A stretch of DNA of 22,530 nt from a virus. The DNA lies in IMG/VR virus record IMGVR_UViG_3300009620_001904, positions 1 through 22,530 of that record; one strand, written 5' to 3'. Positions 5,120 through 10,642 of this stretch are shown here, piece after piece. Both the position numbers and the translations under genes were made by a program. Within the stretch, counting starts at the first letter, position 1; every line of letters starts with the position of its first letter. The notes beneath the pieces were generated by a model. The model saw nothing but the letters and a program-made list of their open reading frames with translations. It did not search any database and was not told where the DNA came from.

Positions 5120-6799
5120 CTAATGTCGAGATGAGAGGAAGTTGAACGTGTCAACGACCGAAGTTAAATCCTCCTTGTCTGTTACTTTTGCAACGACTTC
5201 TTGTGGGTAGTAGCCCCTGTCAATATTGGAGCGCCTCCTGCCCAGCGAAACAGTAACTGAACAGAACTTAACCCCCTTAGCTATCATTCTTTTAGCTACA
5301 ACTGCGCACTTGTCAGGGTTCTGGGGTTCTCCATCAGTGATAACTACTCCGGTTGCACCTTGAGATTGATCTCCAAGTAAATCTTCCATGACTTCAAGTG
5401 CTGCTTCTTCTGGAGTGTTGCCATTTAAAGTTTTACCTTCTTCACAATAAGGACACAGAAGTCTCTCTCCTCTGGGTACTTCTACAATTACTGGAAACTT
5501 TCTCTCATCTGAATACCCAAAGACTCTGGACTCAGGAAAAGATCTGCTTAGCATTGCTGCTATATCCCAGATTGTTACCCCTATATGATATGACGGATCT
5601 ACCCTGTGATAGTTACCACATCTACACGAAGTAGATTGAGAACAATCAACCATAATTATTAGCTGGCTGCTAGAGATGTCATCTTTCTTGAATACATCTA
5701 GCTCACCGAATGGAAGCCGTGCAATCTTCTTGTTTGGCTTACCAGTGCTGCCTTGTTTTACTAATTTATAGTCAGCAAAATCATTTAGAAGTAGCCGTGC
5801 TTGAAGTGAACTAACAACTGGCTTAGTCTTATAGCCTGTGGATACACTAGGGTGTGCAAACCTAGCGTTGTTTTGTTGGAGGGCAGCCCAATCACGTTCA
5901 TCTTGTTTCTTACCCTCTTCTTGCTGTACCTTTCTGGTTTCTTGCTGCTTTTGTTTAATCTTATTGAGTAGTTCTTTTACACGTTCACTTTGCTCAGGGT
6001 TAGCTACTTCTTCCTGCTCTGAATTAGTATTCTCAATGTCTCTGGGTCTACGCTCCTCATCAGATCCGATGTCTGAATTCTTATCATCTGATCTGCTGGG
6101 TTCCCCCTCTCCTTCTGCTTCTTCACTGCTATCCTCAGCCTCATCGGGAGCGTCACTGCTTGTAGGATCTTGCTCATCATTTTCATGGCCTTGATCTTCC
6201 TCTTGATCTTCCGGTGGCTGCTTCAGATATTCAAGAATCTTTATTGCTTCTTCTGCCAGAGGCAGCACTGCATCCATGCTTGGAAGCTTAGAGATCTCAA
6301 CTAATCTTTTAGAAAGCCGCTTCCCGTTAGCCTCAAGATACTTTGTTATTCCAGAGCTGAAGTTTCTTTTAGCAGCACCAGTAAACATGGCTGAAGTGAT
6401 AGCACTATTACCAAAGTTATCTTCTGCTAGTATCTTCTCTAAGGCAGAGCCGTTATAGAACTCATGTCCACGTAACACTGCATAACAATAAGCAAGTTCT
6501 TCTAGTACCTGCTCAGGATAGTGGTGGTACGAAGATGGACTTTGATCTGGTATCAAACCGTAATAATTATTTGATACCTGTGTCCCTACTGCTCCAAGTT
6601 CCTGTGCTACATCTCTTACCACTGACAGTGATGCAAGCTTTGCATAGCTATCAGTTTCCTCATAGGTAAAAGACTGAGAGGCTGTGTTCTGATTTTCCCA
6701 TGCTTTAATCCTGCCTCTAGCACTGTTTCCATGCTGCTGCTGTGCATCAGTTCTGGATTTACTAAGATGATCTAAGTATGATCTAACTTCTTCTGACAT
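5120..6799 (-). CDS. VWA-domain protein, CobT-like partner of the AAA+ ATPase
   Basis: A 559-residue protein. The N-terminal ~190 residues are helical, residues about 195-270 are highly acidic and low complexity, 275-305 are a K/Q/E coiled-coil-like stretch, and the C-terminal ~190 residues form a von Willebrand A domain. The metal-ion-dependent adhesion site is intact: D385-x-S387-x-S389, T462 and D489 (VVITDGEP). This acidic-linker-plus-VWA architecture is that of CobT and other VWA partners of MoxR-type ATPases. Two cysteine pairs inside the VWA domain (C392/C394 and C449/C452) may form an added zinc site. TAATG coupling joins it to the cysteine-rich 49-aa gene. A role with the ATPase at 7173-8789 is likely; cobalt chelation itself is not implied. 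Codons 374-384 carry the 32-nt repeat shared with the gene at 10271-10597. Confidence 0.8.
   Translation of the reverse strand: MSEEVRSYLDHLSKSRTDAQQQHGNSARGRIKAWENQNTASQSFTYEETDSYAKLASLSVVRDVAQELGAVGTQVSNNYYGLIPDQSPSSYHHYPEQVLEELAYCYAVLRGHEFYNGSALEKILAEDNFGNSAITSAMFTGAAKRNFSSGITKYLEANGKRLSKRLVEISKLPSMDAVLPLAEEAIKILEYLKQPPEDQEEDQGHENDEQDPTSSDAPDEAEDSSEEAEGEGEPSRSDDKNSDIGSDEERRPRDIENTNSEQEEVANPEQSERVKELLNKIKQKQQETRKVQQEEGKKQDERDWAALQQNNARFAHPSVSTGYKTKPVVSSLQARLLLNDFADYKLVKQGSTGKPNKKIARLPFGELDVFKKDDISSSQLIIMVDCSQSTSCRCGNYHRVDPSYHIGVTIWDIAAMLSRSFPESRVFGYSDERKFPVIVEVPRGERLLCPYCEEGKTLNGNTPEEAALEVMEDLLGDQSQGATGVVITDGEPQNPDKCAVVAKRMIAKGVKFCSVTVSLGRRRSNIDRGYYPQEVVAKVTDKEDLTSVVDTFNFLSSRH
5655..5686 (-). 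repeat. 32-nt exact repeat, copy 1
   Basis: Located in the VWA gene just before the metal-site D385; identical to 10374-10405. The encoded strand leads into the VWA core, so this copy is probably the ancestral one (inference). Confidence 0.9.
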
Positions 6800-6819
6800 T
6801 AACTATCTCCACATTCAAT
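6797..6819 (-). repeat. Gene-junction repeat, copy 1
   Basis: This 23-base segment (stop/start junction plus the last codons) matches 6946-6968 with one mismatch. Both copies hold a GGAGATAGTTAATG ribosome-binding and TAATG start arrangement and encode E-(C/S)-GDS ends. Confidence 0.7.
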
Positions 6820-6948
6820 ACAGGCACAGTTGCCTTCACCTATGAAGTCAGGACAATCCTCACCTTCTATACACCAGTTTGGGTTAGCCCTGCATCTATG
6901 TGTGCGACATTCATTAGCTGTGCAATCTTCACAAATTTCTTTTGGCAT
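6799..6948 (-). CDS. Cysteine-rich 49-aa protein
   Basis: A small frame lies exactly between two genes, with TAATG junctions at both ends: its ATG overlaps the stop of the 74-aa gene and its TAA overlaps the ATG of the VWA gene. It encodes 49 residues with nine cysteines (at 6, 9, 14, 19, 26, 32, 41, 43 and 46), opening MPKEICEDCTANEC and ending CACIECGDS. The cysteine density and precise coupling argue for a real metal-binding or disulfide-rich peptide. No family is recognised. It could be a metal-binding accessory of the AAA+/VWA pair (inference). Confidence 0.65.
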   Translation of the reverse strand: MPKEICEDCTANECRTHRCRANPNWCIEGEDCPDFIGEGNCACIECGDS

Positions 6949-6968
6949 TAACTATCTCCAGATTCAAT
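6946..6968 (-). repeat. Gene-junction repeat, copy 2
   Basis: Second copy of the 23-base translational-coupling junction described at 6797-6819, one mismatch apart. Confidence 0.7.
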
Positions 6969-7172
6969 CTCGTTATACCTAGCCTTTAGCGAGTCATCGG
7001 ATTCATACCTTAGTCCACGACTTCCGTATTCTCCTAGGTTAGAGATTTCCTGTATCAATTCCTCTTTAGACCAGCTTTCATGGCTTAGCTTCCAATGCTC
7101 AACAATTCTTTCAATAAGAAGATGCCTTATCGTCTTGTCTGCTGCCATTACAGCTCCCTCTTCTTTTGACAT
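6948..7172 (-). CDS. Small hypothetical protein
   Basis: A 74-residue helical, charged protein of unknown family, between the AAA+ ATPase gene and the cysteine-rich gene. The first ATG abuts the ATPase stop codon. An internal ATG at 7146-7148 has a stronger ribosome-binding site (AGAGGGAG), so the protein may be 66 residues. Its last residues (IESGDS) and the bases around its stop nearly duplicate those of the next gene. Confidence 0.55.
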   Translation of the reverse strand: MSKEEGAVMAADKTIRHLLIERIVEHWKLSHESWSKEELIQEISNLGEYGSRGLRYESDDSLKARYNEIESGDS

Positions 7173-8789
7173 TTAGAGATTGATCCCTTCTAATCCTTCT
7201 ACTTCTTCGTAGTCTTTTTCAAAGTGCGTTGCAAACACTGACATAGCCCTCTCTTTCTGCTCTGTTTCTTTGAGAGTATTTACATGACAAACTATCAGTG
7301 CAGTAGTTATGTCCACTCCCCGCAGCAAAGTCTTTGCTGTCATAATCAATGATCTTGTAGAGATGGTAGTTGTAATGTCCTCTCTCATATCAACAGCCAT
7401 TTGCCTTAGCTTGTTAGCAGTCTTACCAAAGTACTGCTCTGGAAGAATCCCATCCAGTATCACTGGCTCATCTGCAATCTCATCCTTGATCTGAATGATT
7501 CTCATTCTGTCAAGCAAGGCTTTGTCTAGTGGGTTGTTGAAGTAACCACCACCAGTTGGGTTGCCTGTTGCATATATCCAGAGTTTAGGATGAACAGGTA
7601 TTTCATCTTCACTATTTTCATAGACAGTGAAGTGTCTGTACCCATCTTCCATTAGTGAGTGCAGCCTGTTGTTGAATTCTGGCGGAGCCTTTGGTAACTC
7701 ATCAAGAATTAACATGCCACCCTCACCGCTTGCCCTAACCATCTTGGTTACTGTTCCATCTTGCCAGCCCAGTCCAATACCTAAGTATTCATAGCTGCTC
7801 ATGTCTTGACCTAGGCCAGTCTTACCTATTACTGTTCCGTCTGCCTGTCTCCAGAACGGGGTTGGTCTTGGAGTACCTACTAATACTTCTTGGTCAATAC
7901 GACTTGTAAAAGTAATACTGTTTATGTTGTCTCTGCCAGTGTGTTCACCTAGCATGTGACCCATGAAAGTCTTGCCTGCACCAGCCTCACCCTCCATATA
8001 TATTGGAGATCCTTCTAGTGATAAGCAAAGATTGAATACTTTATCGCCATAATCTGTTAGTGCAATCTTGTATTCCGCTGCGTCTTTAGCTGCACTAAGC
8101 TCATTAGCATCTAGCTTTGGAACAGACCAAGCTTCCTTATTGGTTATGTCAAAGCCAAGCCCACTCTCTACATCAGATGTATTTGGCACAACAGTGCCAG
8201 CCATTGACGCATCTGCTAATACTTCCCCAGCTATTTCTTCCATGCCTAACGTTAGAAGAAAGTAAGGATTATGCATAAGTATTTTATGGACATGATCCCT
8301 GTCATATTCAGCTATGTAAGCAGCATTTTGCCTAGCCTCTGCGGTACACGCAGCGGTGGCTGCCAGCCTTGGCTTGATATAAGTCTGATCTGATTGTTTA
8401 GAACTATATCTGCCAGTGAGCCGTGTCAGATTGGTGTGAATCCCATCAAGATAAGTAGTCAACCACTGTTTATATTTCTGGGCAGTAGTATTGCTAAAGG
8501 GAATGTTATACATAAGAACACTACTGCTTGCAGTTGGTTCGAATGTTGTGACTAATCCCTTTGTGTAATCTTCAATGAGAAAATTACCAGTAGTAATAGC
8601 TATTGGAAGTACTGCGCCAGAGCCTTTGCTTTTAGCACATAACTCCATGAATTTATGTTCAACGCCCTGTGTATCTCTGATATATGTGCTGTTTGTCACT
8701 AAATATCTGTGACTGAGTGATCGTCCTCTGCAAAATGCTTGAAGCGTAGTCTCATACTGAGCAGGAACTCCGATATTTTGAATTGTCAT
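7173..8789 (-). CDS. MoxR/CobS-type AAA+ ATPase
   Basis: A 538-residue protein whose second half is an AAA_5 (MoxR/CobS) ATPase. Visible motifs are Walker A GEAGAGKT (about 267-274), Walker B MLILDEL (D363-E364), sensor 1 in WIYATGNP (N410), and an STRS segment in the lid. ATPases of this group form hexamers that remodel or load metal into target complexes, with a VWA protein as partner; that partner is encoded two small genes downstream. The N-terminal ~240 residues are not a familiar domain and may be phage-specific. The frame opens upstream to 8846, but the ATG at 8787-8789 has AAGAAAGG in good position and does not overlap the previous gene, so I use it. Confidence 0.8.
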   Translation of the reverse strand: MTIQNIGVPAQYETTLQAFCRGRSLSHRYLVTNSTYIRDTQGVEHKFMELCAKSKGSGAVLPIAITTGNFLIEDYTKGLVTTFEPTASSSVLMYNIPFSNTTAQKYKQWLTTYLDGIHTNLTRLTGRYSSKQSDQTYIKPRLAATAACTAEARQNAAYIAEYDRDHVHKILMHNPYFLLTLGMEEIAGEVLADASMAGTVVPNTSDVESGLGFDITNKEAWSVPKLDANELSAAKDAAEYKIALTDYGDKVFNLCLSLEGSPIYMEGEAGAGKTFMGHMLGEHTGRDNINSITFTSRIDQEVLVGTPRPTPFWRQADGTVIGKTGLGQDMSSYEYLGIGLGWQDGTVTKMVRASGEGGMLILDELPKAPPEFNNRLHSLMEDGYRHFTVYENSEDEIPVHPKLWIYATGNPTGGGYFNNPLDKALLDRMRIIQIKDEIADEPVILDGILPEQYFGKTANKLRQMAVDMREDITTTISTRSLIMTAKTLLRGVDITTALIVCHVNTLKETEQKERAMSVFATHFEKDYEEVEGLEGINL

Positions 8790-8800
8790 ACTTGCCTTTC

Positions 8801-9103
8801 TTAGTATTCTGACGGAAACAGTAAGGTCGTTACTGATCTGTCCCACTCTGTAATAATCCAGAGCTTATCTTCTCTACCCTCATAGAGATTAGTGGCATCT
8901 ATTGGATAAGAACTCAGCAGCCTGCCACCAGTCTTGGCTGAATCATCATTGAGTTTCGCATCTTCAGCGTCAAGTTCACCCCAATCACCTGACTTATGCT
9001 TATCTAGTAACTTACTAACAACAGATTTACGTTCATCGGGGTTTTTCATAACCCAACCTGCTACCCCTGCTGTTACCACTGTCCTTCCAAGATCAACTTC
9101 CAT
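8801..9103 (-). CDS. Plasmid/phage conserved hypothetical (GDWGDLD-type)
   Basis: A 100-residue protein. The segments HKSGDWGELDAEDAKLND, GGRLLSSY and KLWIITEWDRSVTTLLFPSEY match, from memory, a small family common on plasmids and mobile elements and usually annotated 'plasmid related protein'; its biochemical role is unknown to me. The ATG at 9101-9103 has GAAAGG upstream; the longer frame to 9169 would use GTG without a ribosome-binding site. It is the first gene of the leftward block, so it may be the first expressed. Confidence 0.7.
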   Translation of the reverse strand: MEVDLGRTVVTAGVAGWVMKNPDERKSVVSKLLDKHKSGDWGELDAEDAKLNDDSAKTGGRLLSSYPIDATNLYEGREDKLWIITEWDRSVTTLLFPSEY

Positions 9104-9434: not shown

Positions 9435-10004
9435 ATGGCTGGACATCAATTAGATAAAAGAACTAAGACAGTAGAGGTAATAAAGAAGGCTAAGATGGGC
9501 AGAGAGCCTGTCATCCCTGCCTTTGGTGTTACTAGGCGAGAAGAACTGTTTTGCAGAGAGGTAATCGAAGGGTCTACCTTAACTGAGGCTTATAAGCTAG
9601 CGTATCAGCCCCATATTAACTCTACTATTCAGTCAATACATAACAAAGCCTCTGCTTTATTCCGCAAGGAAAGGGTAGCAAGAAGGGTAGAAGAACTGTA
9701 TGAGCAGCAGGATTCACTGTCAAGACTAGACACAGACTATGTAATCACTAACCTGATAAGTAATCATAGGATAGCTTTAGAGTCGGGCGATCTGACATCA
9801 AGTAATAAATCATTAGAATTATTAGGGCGACATCTAAATCTATTTGAAAGAAAACCACAAGCAGACGAACAAGTTGCTAGTTTATTTAGTTGGATAGCCC
9901 AACAGTCTGGCAACATAAATATAGAAAAACCTAGGGATTCAGCACTCGCTCCAGCTACGATAGAGGTAGAGGTCAAAGAGTTAGACGGTCAACCAGACAA
10001 CTGA
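9435..10004 (+). CDS. terS: Terminase small subunit
   Basis: A 189-residue protein resembling terminase small subunits, which bind the packaging site and regulate the large subunit. The basic N-terminus is followed by TRREELFCREVIEGSTLTEAYKLAY, a helix-turn-helix-like DNA-binding segment at about 33-58 (cited as a landmark). Then come VARRVEELYEQQ and DTDYVITNLISNHRIALESGDL with KSLELLGRHLNLF, the usual oligomerisation region. The C-terminus is polar. The ATG has AAGG four bases upstream. It is isolated from terL by 3.8 kb of mostly opposite-strand sequence, which is unusual. Confidence 0.75.
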   Translation: MAGHQLDKRTKTVEVIKKAKMGREPVIPAFGVTRREELFCREVIEGSTLTEAYKLAYQPHINSTIQSIHNKASALFRKERVARRVEELYEQQDSLSRLDTDYVITNLISNHRIALESGDLTSSNKSLELLGRHLNLFERKPQADEQVASLFSWIAQQSGNINIEKPRDSALAPATIEVEVKELDGQPDN

Positions 10005-10077: not shown

Positions 10078-10096
10078 TGAAGATTTGGGGTTAAAT

Positions 10097-10133
10097 AAAA
10101 AAAGGGAGCGGCCCTAAAGCTGCTCCCCTTTTG
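10097..10133. terminator. Bidirectional intrinsic terminator
   Basis: A 9-bp stem (GGGAGC-GGC paired with GCT-GCTCCC, one G:U) is flanked by A-run and T-run on both sides. On the minus strand it lies directly after the CCA end of the tmRNA-like RNA and is followed by seven T. On the plus strand it can end terS transcription. Confidence 0.8.
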
Positions 10134-10141
10134 TTATTAGT

Positions 10142-10220
10142 TGGTGGAGGTGGGGGGAATCGAACCCCCGTCCTGCAACTTCCACATGTGGTTTTAGTTG
10201 CAGTCTTACCAGTCACCCCC
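10142..10220 (-). ncRNA. Minimal tmRNA-like (tRNA-like domain only) RNA
   Basis: The minus strand folds as a 79-nt tRNA-like molecule. The 7-bp acceptor stem is GGGGGTG (10214-10220) with CACCTCC (10146-10152), the third pair being G3:U70, the alanine identity pair. A73 and an encoded CCA follow (10142-10145). The T arm is GGGGG-TTCGATT-CCCCC (10153-10169), and GAC links it to the next helix as in tmRNA. The D region ACTGGTAAGA has no stem, as in tmRNA. Instead of an anticodon arm there is an 8-bp helix (CTGCAACT/AGTTGCAG) like tmRNA helix P2, closed by a 15-base loop containing the palindrome CCACATGTGG. There is no room for a tag-coding domain or pseudoknots. A strong terminator follows on the same strand. 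Alternatives are a degenerate tmRNA remnant or a divergent tRNA; an attachment site alone would not keep the paired 5' half. Confidence 0.75.
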
Positions 10221-10225
10221 CTAAA

Positions 10226-10249
10226 GCGGGCGACATTTCTGTCGCCCGC
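10226..10249 (-). repeat. GCGGGC hairpin upstream of the tmRNA-like RNA
   Basis: A perfect 10-bp stem (GCGGGCGACA/TGTCGCCCGC) with a 4-base loop lies after the 108-aa gene and 5 bases before the RNA. Only TTTAG follows on the minus strand, so termination may be leaky and the RNA could be processed from read-through transcript. It is one of three similar gene-spacer hairpins. Confidence 0.6.
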
Positions 10250-10270: not shown

Positions 10271-10597
10271 CTATGGATGGTTTTTATCGTAATCGCTTAT
10301 AGATATTGCTATGCCACGTAGTGAAACGGCTACATCTGAAAGATTTTCAGATAACTCTGTATCTCTTCCAGATATTATTAGCTGGCTGCTAGAGATGTCA
10401 TCTTTGATGACATCTCTAATGGAGCCGATAGTGGCTAGCAATGCGTAGATCTCTGCCCTTTTATGCAGTTGATCTACGCTAAAAGGCATTGTTCCATCTG
10501 ACTGAACATCTGCTAAAACCTTAGCATCGTTCAAAGATGTAACTGCCTTTTCATAGTCTAAGCCCGGCAATATGTTCGGTCTGTTTTCATCAGACAT
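10271..10597 (-). CDS. Hypothetical protein sharing a peptide with the VWA gene
   Basis: A 108-residue protein of unknown family, acidic and mostly helical. The ATG has AGAGGA five bases upstream. Residues about 62-76 include KDDISSSQLII, identical in peptide and in 32 nucleotides to a segment of the VWA protein encoded at 5120-6799. The same stretch forms half of a 13-bp perfect hairpin in the DNA (10390-10418). It is the gene nearest to the tmRNA-like RNA. Confidence 0.6.
   Translation of the reverse strand: MSDENRPNILPGLDYEKAVTSLNDAKVLADVQSDGTMPFSVDQLHKRAEIYALLATIGSIRDVIKDDISSSQLIISGRDTELSENLSDVAVSLRGIAISISDYDKNHP
10374..10405 (-). repeat. 32-nt exact repeat, copy 2
   Basis: Identical over 32 bases to 5655-5686, on the same strand and in the same coding frame (KDDISSSQLII). 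Flanking bases differ immediately on both sides. Confidence 0.9.
10390..10418. repeat. 13-bp perfect hairpin inside the 108-aa gene
   Basis: Arms TAGAGATGTCATC / GATGACATCTCTA with a 3-base loop. The left arm and loop belong to the 32-nt repeat; the right arm is unique to this copy. Confidence 0.85.
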
Positions 10598-10618: not shown

Positions 10619-10642
10619 GCGGGCGACATTGCTGCCGCCCGC
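10619..10642 (-). repeat. GCGGGC hairpin between 62-aa and 108-aa genes
   Basis: Nearly the same hairpin as at 10226-10249 (GCGGGCGACA / TGCCGCCCGC, one mismatch) in the spacer between two leftward genes. Confidence 0.6.

Follow-up and report, generated by a model that had tools for sequence, protein, structure and literature searches.

The bacterial one-piece tmRNA (RF00023) joins a tRNA-like domain (TLD), made up of an acceptor stem with G3:U70, a D region, a GA/GGA junction, the P2 helix, a T arm and CCA, to a tag reading frame, pseudoknots and a resume codon. TLD-only forms have been described before, in one phage and in organelles. The RNA of Mycobacterium phage DS6A (tmID 11587) comprises little beyond the tRNA-like domain of tmRNA (PMC4131195, PMC11915505) and is classed there as TLD only (PMC4131195). 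In mitochondria and in Mallomonadaceae plastids, the CDS-less tmRNAs consist of a tRNA-like domain without a tag frame; they are organellar and of a different lineage, the mitochondrial forms occurring with imported SmpB and the plastid forms being about 65 nt long (PMC11915505). The tmRNA genes carried by phages of the Bxz1 group, Bacillus phage G and Melnitz are reported as full or two-piece, with a message domain (PMC4131195, PMC9004378).

The 79-nt RNA described here shares with the bacterial tmRNA all of the TLD elements named above, whereas a short hairpin takes the place of the remaining 302 model positions. It is phage-encoded, like the tmRNAs of the Bxz1 group, phage G and Melnitz, but has no message domain, and in this it resembles the DS6A and organellar RNAs. 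DS6A differs in phage and host, and its RNA is compared with ours by description only, the inner hairpin lying outside the comparison. The original prediction had taken such a minimal form to be new for a phage, which is wrong in view of DS6A. What appears to be new is the breadth of the TLD-only family and the evidence for selected alanylation: no description of the family size, the inner hairpin, the alanine constraint or the location in tRNA arrays was found in the literature searched, which covered few subscription papers.

The RNA lies on the minus strand of a 22,530-base IMG/VR virus record (the whole stretch analysed, called the window below), which also encodes the small and large terminase subunits, a RecT-like protein and a CbbQ/CobS-like ATPase (Pfam, PHROGs); record type and terminase genes on the same contig mark the RNA as phage-encoded. 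From 10220 to 10142 it reads GGGGGUG-ACUGGUAAGA-CUGCAACU-AAAA-CCA-CAUG-UGG-A-AGUUGCAG-GAC-T arm-CACCUCC-ACCA (Table 1). The acceptor stem (GGGGGUG/CACCUCC) has 7 bp, includes G3:U70, and is followed by A73-CCA. P2 consists of 8 bp, the first C-G pair taking the first G of GGAC, and encloses, behind the AAAA bulge, an inner 3-bp hairpin (CCA-CAUG-UGG) that is common to most relatives. The D region of the window RNA (GGUAAGAC) is slightly divergent from the relatives' consensus (GGUUUCGAC). The minimum free energy is -32.9 kcal/mol (z -2.5), and both the MFE and the centroid folds correspond to the TLD/P2 structure.

Table 1. Features of the TLD-only RNA and its surroundings (positions in the window unless a contig is named).
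Feature	Position	Strand	Evidence or remark
TLD-only tmRNA-like RNA, 79 nt	10142-10220	-	RF00023 65.6 bits, E 8.8e-24; R1 model 72.8 bits, E 1.2e-14
Acceptor stem, 5' strand GGGGGUG	10214-10220	-	partner 10146-10152; G3:U70; 99.1% of cells paired in relatives
Acceptor stem, 3' strand CACCUCC	10146-10152	-	U70 is position 5 of the strand; sequence, Rfam match, fold, relatives
A73 and encoded CCA tail	10142-10145	-	sequence
Stemless D region ACUGGUAAGA	10204-10213	-	GG, and GA preceding P2; Rfam alignment
P2 helix, 5' strand CUGCAACU	10196-10203	-	8 bp with AGUUGCAG
P2 helix, 3' strand AGUUGCAG	10173-10180	-	last G is first G of GGAC; fold and relatives
Inner hairpin CCA-CAUG-UGG	10182-10191	-	in the place of the mRNA-like domain; fold
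T arm, 5 bp, loop UUCGAUU	10153-10169	-	100% of cells paired in relatives
10-bp hairpin, GAAA loop, few bases upstream of RNA 5' end	10226-10249	-	fold -21.7 kcal/mol, z -6.9
Intrinsic terminator behind RNA, stem-loop and T7	10095-10130	-	fold -17.3 kcal/mol; plus-strand version also found
108-aa ORF directly upstream of RNA	10271-10597	-	ORF list; no Pfam or PHROGs match
Terminase small subunit, convergent neighbour	9435-10004	+	phrog_51 4e-16
TLD-only tmRNA in Streptomyces-phage tRNA arrays (LuckySocke, BRock, pSt2308, Shaeky)	L352 3001-3081, L353 2992-3072, L357 3001-3081, L354 2991-3072		

The RF00023 match (65.6 bits) spans exactly 10220-10142 on the minus strand and runs between model ends 1-374, with 9 nt replacing 302 internal positions. 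Acceptor, T arm, stemless D region and the start of P2 are all present, while the tag frame, the pseudoknots and the resume codon are absent from the alignment. The complete tmRNA-type tRNA-like domain proposed from the letters is thus correct in its coordinates and parts, as is the single 8-bp P2-like helix said to replace the mRNA-like domain. A covariance model of the relatives (R1), seeded with 24 pattern matches from which the window was excluded, recovers the same RNA at 72.8 bits. With E values of 8.8e-24 (Rfam) and ~1e-14 (R1) the match is far beyond chance, and the assignment of the RNA as tmRNA-derived and reduced to the tRNA-like domain is strongly supported.

Two other classes were rejected. 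The ordinary tRNA model (RF00005) gives 24.1 bits, below its cut-off of 29 and far worse than the tmRNA model; the RNA has no anticodon arm, and ARAGORN calls neither a tRNA nor a tmRNA at 10142-10220. The permuted two-piece tmRNA model (RF04321) reaches 28 bits against a cut-off of 47, and the unpermuted acceptor pairs perfectly.

In the window, the RNA ends a minus-strand gene run and is convergent to the terminase small subunit gene. The predicted intrinsic terminator is found directly after it (a GC-rich hairpin followed by T7) and likely serves both strands. A crude test finds a terminator behind the RNA in 4 of 85 relatives, so it is not a family feature. In the window's lineage, the RNA is present in a near-identical contig (L086) and absent from a distant relative (L364, a 38,992-base record with TerL 66% identical), and is therefore an accessory there. 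BLAST of the window against phages gave no match, and BLAST for the phage lineages of L206, L117 and L366 gave none either.

Relatives were collected from viral contigs with a pattern in which GGGG..G, GAC and the GGAC/T-arm core were fixed and the 3' acceptor strand and P2 were left free. At least 119 stretches fit this pattern, and nearly all of the matches listed are 76-84 nt long with 7/7 acceptor pairs. The R1 model places more than 90 RNAs besides that of the window at 50-95 bits, while the 3' parts of full tmRNAs in bacterial genomes reach at most 44 bits. With the pattern scans combined, the TLD-only RNA occurs in at least about 132 viral contigs, forming 49 clusters at 80% identity; CcrColossus, CcrRogue, PaMx31, SlimJimmy, IME-SM1, Kumao and RpAliso (R1 about 22-32 bits) are not counted as members. 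In the cultured Streptomyces phages LuckySocke, BRock, pSt2308 and Shaeky the RNA is located among tRNA genes and is not annotated as RNA. ARAGORN misses nearly all relatives. The known phage example was a single case, DS6A, and is now joined by a covarying RNA shared by this large set of viral contigs.

Two loci are of separate note. The first is L180 5905-6228, which ARAGORN reports as a tagged, full-length tmRNA. The 3' end of this call coincides with that of an 83-nt TLD-only RNA that fits well, and the tag is probably spurious. In the scan of bacterial genome contigs, the matches listed are mainly the 3' parts of full tmRNAs (the class that stays at or below 44 bits) and include one true case (L342 2383-2466). 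Its contig, 17 kb long and of low coverage, belongs to a Pseudanabaenaceae assembly, bears tRNA genes and may come from a phage.

A MAFFT alignment of the relatives (A1) was misaligned in the 5' half, and the pairing statistics were therefore taken from the covariance-model alignment (A3) and from an anchored parse. In A3, where about six rows score low and probably do not belong to the family, 96.8% of cells are standard pairs and 18 of the 22 pairs are changed on both sides; the covariation score of 0.614 compares with 0.122 after shuffling and with no more than 0.081 when the partners are slid. The inner hairpin (helix 3 of A3) is 96.6% paired, with two-sided changes in two of the three pairs. 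Since a model alignment is fitted to the structure and leans towards it, the separate parse was anchored on GAC and GGAC only, and the GAC chosen in a given sequence was the one yielding the longest helix. By this parse, P2 pairs 2-7 are 90% paired, versus 44% with the strands swapped between sequences (maximum 52% in 2000 swaps). Acceptor, P2, inner hairpin and T stem all covary strongly among the relatives, so that the acceptor and P2-like pairings, expected of true homologues, are both conserved and varied in a compensatory manner. Compensatory changes in every helix across 49 clusters, together with the conserved inner hairpin and the invariant G3:U70, require selection.

The G3:U70 pair is an established identity element of AlaRS. 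Pair 3 is G:U in all 88 relatives of the anchored parse, a count in which the 5' GGGG was imposed by the scan and the 3' U was not, and in 95 of the 98 rows of A3. The G3:C70 version of the pattern has no match in 2.9 million viral contigs, against at least 119 stretches when the 3' acceptor strand is left free, while a single acceptor class with U70 has 47 matches in viral contigs. Other pairs do vary across the relatives: every Watson-Crick type occurs at acceptor pairs 5 and 6, which are close to G3:U70, and at T pairs 1 and 2. A73 is found in 88/88 relatives. CCA is encoded in only a third (34 of the 102 counted), and host CCA addition is probably needed in the remainder. From the invariance of G3:U70 we infer that the RNAs would be charged with alanine and that charging matters to them; the alanine charging suggested in the original prediction gains support from it.

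No SmpB was detected in the 50 carrier records, many of which are fragments, while the control search was positive in 10 bacteria; the RNA would consequently rely on the SmpB of the host. What the carriers hold, in genomes without SmpB, is an RNA that derives from tmRNA, lacks a message, is under selection and keeps its alanine determinant invariant. With shape and alanine-charging mark so strongly conserved, the RNA is probably a working device that interferes with host ribosome rescue or reroutes it.

On balance, we lean towards the reading that the phage TLD-only tmRNA acts as an alanylated competitor on host SmpB, EF-Tu and stalled ribosomes, blocking or bypassing tagging. Host enzymes would process the RNA and complete the CCA end where needed, host AlaRS would charge it with alanine, and the charged RNA would bind host SmpB and EF-Tu. 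It would then enter stalled ribosomes in place of the host tmRNA, and nascent chains would escape degradation tagging, their release being left to other factors. Having neither a tag message nor a stop codon, the RNA cannot complete trans-translation, which is why competition with the host tmRNA is expected. As summarised in PMC4131195 and PMC11915505, both citing Mao et al. 2009, a molecule similar to the DS6A RNA strongly inhibits tmRNA in E. coli, and the decoy role considered in the original prediction is compatible with this experimental precedent. The summary in PMC4131195 describes the inhibition as independent of alanine charging. On that description a pure SmpB decoy needs no G3:U70, and the invariance of the pair asks for more than titration. 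The divergent D region of the window RNA and its absence from L364 also count against the competitor reading. Conservation of G3:U70, set beside inhibition without charging, suggests that accepting the nascent chain is part of what the RNA naturally does, and the alanine determinant likewise points to something beyond passive SmpB binding.

The main rival, possible although we consider it doubtful, is a rescue RNA that is minimal but functional. Alanine-charged and borne by host SmpB, it would accept the nascent chain on stalled ribosomes and allow untagged release through a release factor or hydrolase, so that phage translation is sustained during mRNA breakdown. It would then aid translation instead of poisoning rescue. 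An active acceptor needs the alanine determinant, which is invariant here, and the tag-less mitochondrial tmRNAs, which persist with imported SmpB, are thought to aid with incomplete mRNAs (PMC11915505). Against it, the sole test of such a molecule reported in the accounts given by PMC4131195 and PMC11915505 is an inhibition of the host tmRNA, and the absence of a message, and hence of a stop codon, leaves the release step unexplained. A wider form of the same idea, which we put forward only tentatively, is that the whole viral family would serve in tag-free, alanine-charged rescue with host SmpB, possibly with the addition of one or more untemplated alanines, either to free stalled ribosomes or to shield phage proteins from ssrA-tag degradation. 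The blocked ribosome remains the best explanation and untagged release its main rival; the strict conservation of the alanine pair makes the choice between decoy and working rescue RNA experimentally decidable, and the carriers include cultured Streptomyces phages that are directly testable. This conservation also suggests that trans-translation is commonly targeted when phages and hosts are in conflict.

One 123-kb viral contig (L126, record G011) carries both a mini-tmRNA (46486-46567) and a full tmRNA (77588-77979, 94.2 bits), so a single phage could supply a competitor together with a working RNA.

It is improbable that the RNA acts outside rescue, for instance by donating alanyl groups or by baiting AlaRS, EF-Tu, tRNA nucleases or further host defences directed at tRNA. 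Phage tRNAs counter host tRNA cutting, and the RNA is often found among phage tRNA genes, but it has no anticodon arm, and the conserved tmRNA-specific D region, GA/GGA junction and P2 would be superfluous for such a role. The primer or telomere-like element mentioned in the original prediction found no support.

It is also quite unlikely that the RNA is an attachment site, the temperate phage carrying a segment of host ssrA with which to integrate. The ssrA gene is a common integration site, and 12 of the 50 carrier records encode a recombination enzyme (a tyrosine integrase in 8, a serine recombinase in 4 others), about 0.7-1.1 kb from the RNA in G023, G028 and G035. The other 38 have neither enzyme, among them the window record, which may be a fragment; most carriers thus show no sign of attachment-site use, with the reservation that many records are fragments. 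For attachment, identity with the host over one stretch would be enough, whereas here the tRNA-like domain has both of its halves, and these covary, with paired bases conserved instead of primary sequence. The location inside the tRNA arrays of Streptomyces phages and the low share of encoded CCA speak against it as well.

A dead relic of a full tmRNA with the middle deleted is scarcely credible: derivation from tmRNA is evident, but covariation in every helix, the conserved inner hairpin and the invariant G3:U70 refute this for the family.

Two further arrangements are observed in the window. The 10-bp hairpin upstream of the RNA has a near-identical second copy at 10619-10642, ahead of the preceding gene (GCGGGCGACA...; 2 matches versus 0.01 expected), and each copy is placed after a minus-strand gene and before the next unit; they are possible processing or stability elements. 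At 5120-8846 on the minus strand, the CbbQ/CobS-like AAA ATPase adjoins a 559-aa protein that matches no family; the two together resemble the MoxR or CobS-CobT pairs of other phages. An annotated CobT-like gene is also located near the mini-tmRNA of pSt2308.
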